From: Candidatus Competibacteraceae bacterium
GTDB taxonomy: Bacteria; Pseudomonadota; Gammaproteobacteria; Competibacterales; Competibacteraceae
Length of the DNA: 64,000 nt
Direction: 5' to 3'
Assembly: GCA_027492875.1 (NCBI GenBank)
Contig: JAPUDV010000071.1
Coordinates: forward strand, 1 to 64,000
Shown: in pieces, positions 71-3,817 of the stretch
Layout: each line of letters begins with the position of its first letter
Position numbering within the stretch: the stretch's first letter is position 1
Translations under genes and position numbers: made by a program
Notes under the pieces: model-generated
Databases searched by the model: none
The model's input: the letters and a program-made list of their open reading frames with translations, nothing else
What the model was told of the DNA's origin: nothing

Positions 71-295
71 TCATTTTGATGTCTTAGTAAACTCGTCAAC
101 AGTCATCTCTGACGAGCGAATTAAAGTTCTCAAAGTACCTTGGCTACTTCTTTGTGATCAGGGATAGTAAAGCGTTGCCATGCGCCCCTCTCTAACCATA
201 ATAATATGACTGCTCTGGCGTCGTACCACTTCCCAGCCTAGCTGTTCGAACGTCTCAACAACTTTTTTTCCACTCAACCGAGGCAAATGAGACAC
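71..295 (-). pseudogene. hicA: hicA toxin gene broken by two compensating frameshifts
   Basis: A GTG directly after the hicB stop begins HLPRLSGKKVVETFEQLGWE, the typical start of the HicA mRNA-interferase fold, and continues to the conserved SHIIMVREGR segment that carries the catalytic histidine. The frame then slips by one base near 159-165 (LYYP then stop). The family sequence IPDHKEVAK continues in the next frame, and a second slip returns to the first frame for GTLRTLIRSSEMTVDEF, ending at the TGA at 73-71. The total of 225 nt is divisible by three, so the two indels cancel in length but destroy the middle and C-terminus. Either the toxin is dead or the assembly has two indel errors here. 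Confidence 0.7.
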
Positions 296-502
296 TTACG
301 CCAGTACCTCAACCTGCCGTGTCTCAACGGTCAAGGGCAAGCCGCGCTCTGCTCTCACCTCCAAGCAAAGGTGGATGGCTTCCTGAATATTCTTTAAAGC
401 CTCTTCTTTCATACTGCCTTGGCTGACACAACCTGGAATAGCTGGGCATTCAATCACCCAAACACCATCCTCGTCTCTATCGATTATCACAGTAAATTTC
501 AT
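296..502 (-). CDS. hicB: HicB-family antitoxin
   Basis: This 68-residue protein has the compact HicB fold: MKFTVIIDRDEDGVWVIECP followed by a PAIPGCVSQG turn, then a helix (EEALKNIQEAIHLCLEVRAE). In HicAB systems the antitoxin binds and blocks the HicA RNase and represses its own promoter. It lacks the C-terminal DNA-binding extension of longer HicB proteins, so repression by this protein alone is uncertain. The gene precedes hicA and its stop abuts the GTG of the damaged hicA, so the pair was translationally coupled. The antitoxin frame is intact while its toxin is not. Confidence 0.85.
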   Translation of the reverse strand: MKFTVIIDRDEDGVWVIECPAIPGCVSQGSMKEEALKNIQEAIHLCLEVRAERGLPLTVETRQVEVLA

Positions 503-1272: not shown

Positions 1273-2412
1273 TCATTTCTTTTCACCTAATACCAACCCA
1301 GCAACCAACAGTGGTAATGTAAACATCACATATCCTTTACCTTCCCAAGTTTGCCATGATTTCAAGTGAAATAATCCATTACTTAGCAATTCATTAATAC
1401 CTACAAATATAAATGGTGTAGATAAGACTGTCCATAAGAAAAACATCCAAGTTGAAGGACATTTTGTTAAATGTCGCCATCCATACCATCCGAACATAGC
1501 CCAGATTAAAGTACCAAAAAAAAGGATTATTAGCGATCCACCATGAGCTGCCCGACCAATCACATGTAATGGCTGATAAAAAACTCCTTGGCTATATGCC
1601 CAAATCCAAAAGATGAGATGAACAGTTACAGTGATTCCAACTGATAAAATTAAAAACACTCTTGCTCGGAAATAATCTATTTTTACCAAGCAACTGCTTA
1701 ATGCTACAGGAAAAATAATAAATGGCACCCTAGCTGTTGCAACCAAACCAACCAGAACGGCAATGATGATAAAATAGATGTCGTCTTTGTAATAAAAGTT
1801 TAGCGCTAACGTTAGGCCAACTAAAGCTAAAATTATTGCTGGCAAATCATGGCCAATGATACTCATTTGCAGAAAATTTAGAGATAATAGCGTCAACAGA
1901 ATATAAATTAAAGCGTGTGTTGCTTTGCAAATCTTAGCAAGCATAAACCCAGAAAAAAATAAGTAAATAGGCGTAAGAATCGTAATTAATCCACCTAATA
2001 ATAGAGGAGAGTTCAATAGTATCCATCCTGGCCCAGGACTAATTGGCGCACCATCAAATATTCTGATAGAATAAGGATTTAACCCATCATAAAATAGCGC
2101 CGCCGCCGGCCCTATCAAGGCACTAGGCGCCGAGCTGGGATTTGGTACTAACCGAGTTCCTGGATAAAGCAATATATTTAGTAGGCCAAGCACCACAATA
2201 AGTAAAAGCCACAGCAGATTATAATCTAAGATTTTTGACTTTTTCAGACCAAGTTTTTCAATTAAAAAAACAAAAAAAACCAAGAAAATAGCATAAGATA
2301 AGATAAGAAAAACAGAATATTCATAAAAAAATACCATAAAGAAAGGCGCAGAAGTAACTATTGAAATTACTATATATAAAATATAATAAAAATATGATTC
2401 TTTATCTGTCAT
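1273..2412 (-). CDS. AT-rich polytopic membrane protein, glycosyltransferase-like topology
   Basis: The product of about 379 residues is almost entirely hydrophobic, with roughly ten predicted membrane segments and a longer loop after the second third (LLYPGTRLVPNPSSAPSALI). A polyprenol-phosphate-dependent GT-C glycosyltransferase of the GT87 kind has this general layout, but I see no diagnostic acidic motif, so the function is unassigned. ATG 2412 is preferred; an in-frame TTG at 2430 would add six residues. Base composition is strikingly AT-rich compared with the GC-rich genes from 2642 onward, with many AAA, ATA and TTA codons. It is flanked by toxin-antitoxin remnants and a mobile-element-like hairpin block, which points to horizontal acquisition. 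Confidence 0.65.
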   Translation of the reverse strand: MTDKESYFYYILYIVISIVTSAPFFMVFFYEYSVFLILSYAIFLVFFVFLIEKLGLKKSKILDYNLLWLLLIVVLGLLNILLYPGTRLVPNPSSAPSALIGPAAALFYDGLNPYSIRIFDGAPISPGPGWILLNSPLLLGGLITILTPIYLFFSGFMLAKICKATHALIYILLTLLSLNFLQMSIIGHDLPAIILALVGLTLALNFYYKDDIYFIIIAVLVGLVATARVPFIIFPVALSSCLVKIDYFRARVFLILSVGITVTVHLIFWIWAYSQGVFYQPLHVIGRAAHGGSLIILFFGTLIWAMFGWYGWRHLTKCPSTWMFFLWTVLSTPFIFVGINELLSNGLFHLKSWQTWEGKGYVMFTLPLLVAGLVLGEKK

Positions 2413-2432: not shown

Positions 2433-2634
2433 ACCCACCACCTAAAAGACGGTGGGTTGGCTAACGGGGGATAAACCCCCGCTTGAAACGCTTCTCAGCG
2501 GATTGAACTGCCGACTAAAGAACGCGACGCCTAAAGGCGGTGATTTGTACCACAGGCTGCCGCTTACGCGGCTAAAGCCGCAGCTATGGAACTCAAAGGT
2601 TAGCCCCTCTCTACATGATCAGAGAGGGGCTTTT
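2433..2634 (+). ncRNA. hairpin-rich block, candidate IS200/IS605-type end or structured RNA
   Basis: Five stem-loops follow each other. ACCCACC (2433-2439) pairs with GGTGGGT (2451-2457); CGGGGG (2465-2470) with CCCCCG (2476-2481); CGCC (2528-2531) with GGCG (2536-2539); GCGGC (2568-2572) with GCCGC (2577-2581); and an 11-bp terminator stem ends the block. The first four have a TAAA in the loop. Such a series is reminiscent of the right end of TnpB-type IS200/IS605 elements, where a guide-type RNA is encoded. No tnpA or tnpB is present, so this is a remnant or a free-standing RNA. Orientation is inferred from the terminator. Confidence 0.4.
2602..2634 (+). terminator. rho-independent terminator
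   Basis: AGCCCCTCTCT (2602-2612) and AGAGAGGGGCT (2621-2631) form a perfect 11-bp stem with an 8-base loop, followed by a T run on the plus strand. No plus-strand protein gene lies upstream, so it most likely ends the transcript of the hairpin block. Confidence 0.75.
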
Positions 2635-2641
2635 CCCTACC

Positions 2642-3817
2642 TCACACCGGCCGCCGTTTAATCAACAGTCGCCGTTCGATCTCGAAGATCTTGCTGCTGA
2701 TCTTCTCCTTGCTCAGCTTCTGCTTATCGTTCTCCTTGATGAACAGATCCGCCCCATAAGTTTCCAGCGCGGCGGCGGCACTGATGTTCTTCACCCCGAT
2801 GAACTGGAAGGTGACGATGCCAACGGCGTCGGTATTGGACAGAGTTTCCGTCGCCACCACCCGCGACAGCGCCGCCACCGTATCGCCGGACACCGCCGGC
2901 TGGGTGTGATAACCCTCGGTGAAGCCCAGTTCCCACAGTGCGTTTTCGCTGACATCGCGACTGGCCAAGCCCTCCAGCCAGGCGAACACCAGCCCGCCGT
3001 ACACAATCGGCTCGCCGCTCATCTTGCCCGACAGGCCGGTGCTATACACCCGATCAAAATGCAACGGATGGGTGTTACCGACCAGATAGGTCCAGGCCAT
3101 GTGCTCGTCGGTGATGGTGCGACCGTTGGCGTGGACGATCAGATCGCCGAGCGAGAAGTCCTCGAAATAGGTGTTGGGACCGGTCAACTGACTCGGATAG
3201 CCGCCCGCGTTGATCGGCAGATCCACCACCGGATGTTCCACCCACGGAAATTCGACCGGTGTGGTCGGCGCGGGGGTGGTCGGCAGGCGGTCGCCGCGAT
3301 AGCCGACCATGATCTTGCGTTCGTACTGCAACACCACCTGATTGTGCTGGTTCACGCCCAGGGTGCGAATCAGCACGATACCCGGCTTGTCTTCGCCGCG
3401 CGCCTTGCGGTCCATCACCTTGGTGTAGCCGCGCAGGGTGTCGCCCGGATAGACCGGCCGCAGGAACTGCACGTTGTAGTAACCGAGATTGGCGATGGCC
3501 TTTTCGGAGTCGTTGTGGACCCCCAGCGACAGCACCACGTTGAACACCATCTGCGGGCTGGCCGGCAGATCCTGGAAACCGTGCGCCCTGGCATATTCCA
3601 GATTCAGATACAGCGGGTTGCACTGCATGAACACCCGGGCGAAGTCCAGCATCGGTCCGCGTTCAAAGGTATAGCCGCGCGGATGGACAAACACCTGTCC
3701 CGGCACGAATTCATCCAGATAGCGCCCGTACTGCGGCCGGCGCACCCATTCCAGGTTGACCGCCACCGACCCCGCCATTTCCGCCGTCTGTTCGCTCAGT
3801 CGCATCGAGAAACTCAT
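2642..3817 (-). CDS. mch: mesaconyl-CoA hydratase-like double MaoC (hotdog) protein
   Basis: The 391-residue protein has two MaoC/hotdog halves. The first (about 40-190) contains the GYTFERGPMLDFARVF segment. The second (about 215-360) contains the hydratase motif TITDEHMAWTYLVGNTHPLH with the Asp and His expected to activate water. Double-hotdog proteins of this length include mesaconyl-CoA hydratase, which converts mesaconyl-CoA to beta-methylmalyl-CoA in the ethylmalonyl-CoA pathway. The gene starts three bases after the stop of the methylsuccinyl-CoA dehydrogenase gene, whose product mesaconyl-CoA is its substrate. The assignment rests mostly on this pairing; a general enoyl-CoA hydratase cannot be excluded. 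The last 40 residues are lysine-rich. Confidence 0.75.
   Translation of the reverse strand: MSFSMRLSEQTAEMAGSVAVNLEWVRRPQYGRYLDEFVPGQVFVHPRGYTFERGPMLDFARVFMQCNPLYLNLEYARAHGFQDLPASPQMVFNVVLSLGVHNDSEKAIANLGYYNVQFLRPVYPGDTLRGYTKVMDRKARGEDKPGIVLIRTLGVNQHNQVVLQYERKIMVGYRGDRLPTTPAPTTPVEFPWVEHPVVDLPINAGGYPSQLTGPNTYFEDFSLGDLIVHANGRTITDEHMAWTYLVGNTHPLHFDRVYSTGLSGKMSGEPIVYGGLVFAWLEGLASRDVSENALWELGFTEGYHTQPAVSGDTVAALSRVVATETLSNTDAVGIVTFQFIGVKNISAAAALETYGADLFIKENDKQKLSKEKISSKIFEIERRLLIKRRPV

Follow-up and report, generated by a model that had tools for sequence, protein, structure and literature searches.

Short, transposase-free elements with near-terminal palindromes related to those of IS605-type elements are known from Haloquadratum walsbyi as palindrome-associated transposable elements (PATEs), and some of them arose by deletion of the core (PMC3119063). 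The element described here is of the same form and, like the PATEs, has neither inverted terminal repeats nor a target duplication (PMC3119063). ISDra2 of Deinococcus radiodurans also resembles it, with TTGAT beside the left end and insertion 3' of TTGAT without target duplication. The subterminal structure of ISDra2 is bound by the Y1 transposase TnpA, and a structure of the same type is predicted for the present element (PMC2806898, PMC8612924). IS608 of Helicobacter pylori has end hairpins with guide and cleavage sequences (PMC5934647), and the element has end hairpins with putative sequences of both types. A PATE-like element of Halanaerobium hydrogeniformans is likewise an ends-only IS200/IS605 derivative in a bacterium (PMC7290912). 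These likenesses are drawn from the available parts of the cited papers.

The window is a stretch of 64,000 nucleotides (C71:1-64000) from a 3.83-Mb metagenome-assembled genome (MAG) in 146 contigs. Positions 2426-2591, with the minus strand as sense, are read as a complete non-autonomous, transposase-free element of the IS200/IS605 family (PATE/MITE), with a probability of about 0.92. This reading is based on the dispersed copies, the fixed ends and target, the empty sites and the right ends that match tnpA elements. The element represents a new family of an already known kind and is not a new system. A literature search on these bacteria and IS200-type elements found no description of this element family. 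The first-pass annotation had proposed the end of an IS200/IS605-type element; the kind was right, since the family of the element has its right end in common with IS200-type tnpA elements, but the element is complete with both ends.

The element consists of successive hairpins, whose loops read TAAA on the plus strand and TTTA on the minus strand. Its limits come from an alignment of eight copies with unrelated flanks and from empty sites of sister elements, and they replace the 2433-2634 given in the first-pass annotation. The window copy is 166 bp long, or 171 bp with its 5-nt target, and the other full copies range from 152 to 199 with the target included. The insertion target TTGAG (2592-2596, minus strand) belongs to the flank and not to the element, as judged from a tabulation of left ends. 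Like other non-autonomous IS200/IS605 elements, it has subterminal hairpins and lacks inverted terminal repeats.

All parts of the element are given on the minus strand. The left end is a compound hairpin (2550-2589), defined by alignment and helix analysis, and contains the perfect hairpin GCGGC-TTTA-GCCGC (2568-2581), which has a single exact copy in the window's own genome. A 12-13-nt CTTTAG hairpin unit is absent from the left end of the window copy and present in all seven other full copies. Three internal hairpins follow. Helix 4 (2528-2539) has a TTTA loop and one compensated pair (C-G/U-A). Helix 5 (2495-2514) has two compensated pairs in the alignment and is weaker in the window copy. 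Helix 6 (2463-2483), CGGGGG-TTTAT-CCCCCG, has one compensated pair. The right-end hairpin, helix 7 (2433-2457), has a TTTTA loop and two compensated pairs, and hairpins of this kind are found behind tnpA in IS200-type elements. The final bases of the element, TTGAG (2426-2430), are the putative right cleavage site by analogy with IS608 and ISDra2. Four stem-loops with TAAA loops had been reported from the first reading, and they are present on the plus strand at about 2433-2457, 2463-2483, 2528-2539 and 2568-2581, with a weaker fifth at about 2495-2514. The reported position at a change from AT-rich to GC-rich DNA was also confirmed: the GC content is about 0.35 before the block and climbs to about 0.60 behind it. 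A search for repeat pairs in 2200-2900 returned none although the hairpins are there; their arms are short.

The gene next to the target (2642-3817, minus strand) encodes a MaoC-like dehydratase or mesaconyl-CoA hydratase-like protein. A stable hairpin of -22 kcal/mol (2602-2631), followed by four T on the plus strand, lies between the element and the MaoC stop codon. Seven relatives were read at this place, and all seven have MaoC (88-98% protein identity) with a hairpin behind it, at -13 to -26 kcal/mol for the stretch that was folded, and no array. Because the relatives fold a hairpin behind MaoC without the array, 2602-2631 is the MaoC gene-end hairpin and lies outside the element. The strong terminator that the first-pass annotation placed in the block is this hairpin, and a terminator scan of 2200-2900 found no site. 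The 3' side of MaoC is possibly an insertion hot spot beside a conserved gene.

Several features of the surrounding DNA were recorded. The DNA beyond MaoC, on the side of window position 2642 (L012-L018), differs in each of the seven relatives and is AT-rich by eye. On the other side of the element, window 1273-2412 (minus strand) encodes a hydrophobic protein of about 380 aa with no Pfam match, and its likely ATG is 13 nt beyond the right end of the element. A HicA toxin/HicB-like antitoxin pair (Pfam PF07927, PF15919) is located at 158-502 (minus strand), near the contig end and in AT-richer DNA, and the HicA frame there is short (45 aa).

A DNA query from the window matched 12 of 59 genomes (E 0.001). 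Seven of these matches (L012-L018, query positions 203-261) fall on the end of the MaoC gene and not on the element. The element itself was matched in its own genome, G010, G019, G026 and G023, and weakly in G024. Eight full copies (the window, three from G010, two from G019 and one each from G026 and G023) were aligned over 203 columns with a mean column identity of 81%. All eight begin with TTGA and finish with TTGAG in the minus-strand sense, and their flanks are unrelated. The bacterial family is represented by 39 genomes, and a covariance model built from these copies gave at least 60 matches in 19 of them; the number is a lower bound because up to 68 candidates were scored per genome, and two of the 60 (G010 C313 and C20) repeat, on the opposite strand, places that the count already includes. 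The weak model matches include the 3' ends of tnpA elements. An exact-pattern scan of the genome contigs found 10 stretches in proteobacterium A14_bin-2326, 'Ca. Contendobacter' SB13 and RA.bin98, and the block had no match at E 1e-5 in the phage and plasmid collections. Dispersal of copies whose ends are fixed and whose flanks are unrelated is the pattern of a non-autonomous IS200/IS605 element (PATE/MITE).

Related but distinct elements of 139-147 nt are present in G012, G018, G021, G028, G060, G019 and G024. G024 has the most model matches among the family genomes (16), and a related element of 222 nt occurs at eleven places there (L149-L159) with 300-nt flanks that are mutually dissimilar at E 1e-5. 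The eleven copies have only two sequences (8 and 3 copies), which differ at positions 200, 209, 216 and 220, all within the right end. Two of these differences form a compensated hairpin pair and one turns TTTAG to TTCAG. The pattern looks as if whole right ends had been exchanged. Two remnants were also seen. An isolated palindrome at G000:C129:38716-38758 (L005 1717-1759), near a contig end, consists of the right end of the element facing itself and matches the window in 33 of 35 nt. The other, at G000:C78:29540-29634 (L006), is a piece of a degraded left end from this element family and ends in CATGGAAATCAA.

Short palindromic units in an intergenic position, in genomes that have Y1 transposases (searched as the general family PF01797), could also be REP/BIME repeats moved by a REP-associated tyrosine transposase (RAYT), and GTAG or AGTAG stands just behind the right-end hairpin in the window and the G010 copies. 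The G019 and G026 copies, however, have no GTAG at this place. REP sequences are dispersed, GTAG-type palindromes of 20-40 bp in high copy number (PMC3733652). Dispersed palindromes of this type in high copy were not found here: the best hairpin has its one exact copy in the own genome, and the units form one element with a fixed order and two different ends after TTGAT or TTTAT. An origin by RAYT is therefore very improbable, and the reading as an IS200/IS605 derivative is preferred.

The pentamer before the left end is TTGAT in 21 of 35 tabulated copies, TTTAT in 13 and TTGAG in one, the window copy. The TTGAG flank of the window copy, in place of the TTGAT of its nearest relatives, is a point against the main reading. 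Right ends were available for 30 of the 35 rows and comprise 16 TTGAG, 8 TTTAG, 4 TTCAG, 1 TTGAT and 1 TCGAG. The table excludes model matches that lack a left end or are truncated where a contig stops (among them L023, L026, L031 and L095/L024), matches at tnpA ends and weak matches. The flanks of L027 are nearly identical to those of L029, and these two loci may represent a single site.

Empty sites were sought by joining the left flank and pentamer of a copy to its right flank and searching the genomes for this junction in uninterrupted form. Three of the 14 junctions submitted were clearly spanned (L153, L155 and L156). The L153 junction was spanned without gaps in G028 (93% of 178 nt) and G019 (83% of 180 nt), and the L156 junction in G031 (77% of 180 nt). 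The L155 junction was spanned with one or two gaps in G029, G028 and the window's own genome. Matches to the L096 junction extend only 25 nt past it, and the joined form scored above the filled form at all three loci tested (138 vs 121, 132 vs 99 and 86 vs 64 bits); the start of the element resembles the right flank there, so this case is suggestive only. The other ten junctions returned the flanks of the copy itself, matches on one side, or matches reaching only a few bases past the junction. Open reading frames across six joined junctions could be due to chance and were given no weight. The search revealed no clean empty site for the window copy, and the DNA on the array side of its locus is unrelated in the seven relatives. 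Since the joined flanks are uninterrupted in other genomes, the sister copies L153, L155 and L156 have inserted 3' of the pentamer without target duplication. A short fixed target without duplication is apparent from 34 of the 35 left ends and the gap-free L153 and L156 sites.

The bases before the next hairpin vary with the target. By eye, CAAAC is found there in 19 of the 21 rows with a TTGAT target, with CAAAAC in L161 and TAAAC in L090. Among the 13 TTTAT targets, TAAAC is found in L089 and TTAAAAC in the 11 G024 copies and L078. A rule of guide/target pairing is only suggested by these sequences and is not claimed, since L090 breaks it.

The right ends connect the element to transposase genes. 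A Y1 transposase (PF01797) was found in all five genomes searched, and L044 (G019:C78) and L042 (G026:C13) encode Y1_Tnp proteins (E 7e-34 and 1e-37, respectively) with no internal stops. The right end of the G026 copy L010 recurs behind tnpA in L044 (34 of 34 nt) and L042 (33 of 34 nt), in both cases within 101 nt of the end of the tnpA frame. Weaker right-end matches, 82-92% over 24-38 nt, occur behind tnpA in L037, L040 and L041. The right end of the window copy matches L037, L040 and L041, the last of which is the broken tnpA of its own genome, in 82% of 34 nt; at E 1 neither L042 nor L044 was matched by it. The window copy is linked to the tnpA of L042 and L044 by way of its G026 and G019 relatives. 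Of the 60 model matches, eight are at the 3' end of a tnpA on the same strand, and a ninth lies at the broken tnpA in the genome of the window copy.

At the left end, the tnpA elements agree with the element in no more than the first bases (TTTCCA). A 161-bp element in the own genome (L090, C31:101-261), inserted after TTGAT, has a left end that resembles those of L042 and L043 (38 and 39 of 45 nt) joined to a right end of the kind described above. Elements that carry a Y1 (HUH) transposase have in common with this family the right end of L010, less closely that of the window copy, and, over 45 nt, the left end of the sister element L090. The best matches to the window are of the G010 type, for which no tnpA with the same ends was observed; the best tnpA there (C58) is cut by the contig end. 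No intact tnpA was seen in the window's own MAG, where the one on C9 is broken and the one on C68 is cut at the contig end. With only broken and contig-cut tnpA seen in its genome, the window copy is probably immobile now.

The block could instead be the right end and omega RNA (reRNA) region of an element that has lost TnpB and still makes its guide RNA, as the first-pass annotation suggested. The element terminates shortly after a hairpin, the TTGAT before most copies is the TnpB TAM of ISDra2 (available text of PMC8612924), and a folded RNA of about 150 nt would be of reRNA size. However, the right ends match tnpA elements instead, and neither the own genome nor G024, the genome richest in model matches, has a TnpB match (PF07282). 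The 62 TnpB matches, found in 23 of the 39 family genomes, share no contig with the 60 model matches when the two lists are compared by eye; the contigs are short and this point is not decisive alone. Three element sequences compared with 33 of the 62 TnpB loci gave no match at E 0.01. A right end or scaffold shared with a tnpB-bearing element was not found in these 33 loci. Rfam gave no match above the gathering cut-off anywhere in the window. Loss of TnpB with retention of the guide RNA is considered highly improbable, and a candidate guide RNA is removed from consideration.

The fold of the element is stronger than expected by chance, with a z of -4.3 on the plus strand and -5.0 on the minus strand, and none of 200 shuffles was equally stable on either strand. 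Across the eight copies, the 46 pairs in seven helices are paired in 95.8% of cells, and eight of the 46 pairs are changed on both sides. None of 500 shuffles attained the share of paired cells or the number of both-side changes of the real alignment. The count of further pair types is not above chance, since 349 of 500 shuffles attained it. Structures slid along the alignment had 34-57% of cells paired and at most three pairs changed on both sides. The sample is eight sequences from five genomes with uncontrolled relatedness, and the alignment that was tested is also the one that yielded the structure; the pairing and compensatory changes support selection on structure without proving it. The initial proposal had been made dependent on other copies and on covariation in related genomes, and both were found.

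A strong fold with compensatory changes, 13 nt from the likely ATG of an AT-rich gene, could also mean that the block serves the genes beside it as a structured regulatory RNA or as an attenuator. The copies are in unrelated contexts, though, the array is absent at the orthologous MaoC loci of the seven relatives, and the Rfam search was negative, which together make such a function extremely improbable. A different possibility concerns the element itself. The chain of TTTA hairpins between the ends may be selected in its own right, as extra hairpins that bind or decoy the transposase or as a structured RNA. The compensatory changes in the internal helices fit this, as do the G024 right ends, which differ at four places at once with two forming a compensated pair. 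It is nevertheless unlikely. If the internal chain were selected, such elements would be more than a left end merely joined to a right end.

The transposase-free IS200/IS605 element would move as follows. The end hairpins would fold while the DNA is single-stranded, during replication or repair. A Y1 HUH transposase (TnpA), encoded by a related IS200-type element and acting in trans, would bind them and make its cuts at the pentamer of the left flank and at the TTGAG of the right end. The element would then leave as a single-stranded circle, which would insert 3' of another such pentamer with no target duplication. The dispersal, fixed ends, target, lack of duplication at sister copies and the right ends that some copies have in common, exactly or nearly so, with tnpA elements are apparent from the alignments and genome searches. 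The biochemistry of this route, and movement of the window copy by TnpA, are presumed. The results add IS200/IS605 families that lack a transposase and are well delimited. They come with empty sites, show two target types (TTGAT and TTTAT) and belong to bacteria whose family is represented here by metagenome-assembled genomes. These element families are natural material for testing how guide sequences set the target.

The element differs from the known systems in several respects, again as far as the available parts of the cited papers go. The hosts of PATEs are haloarchaea, whereas the relatives of the element are titled 'Ca. Contendobacter' or proteobacterium (PMC3119063). The element has extra internal hairpins with compensated changes, which are not mentioned for PATEs in the available text of PMC3119063. 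Unlike PATEs, the right ends of its family match tnpA elements that have no tnpB match beside them (PMC3119063). The target of most copies in the left-end table is that of ISDra2, TTGAT; ISDra2 carries tnpA and tnpB, whereas the element has no genes and its window copy stands after TTGAG (PMC2806898, PMC8612924). The target of IS608 is set by guide/target pairing, which is only suggested for the element, and the cleavage sites are TTAC and TCAA in IS608 as compared to TTGAT or TTTAT and TTGAG here (PMC5934647). The Halanaerobium hydrogeniformans element is a single sequence in which the final part of tnpB is retained, whereas the present element is multi-copy and has no tnpB match (PMC7290912).
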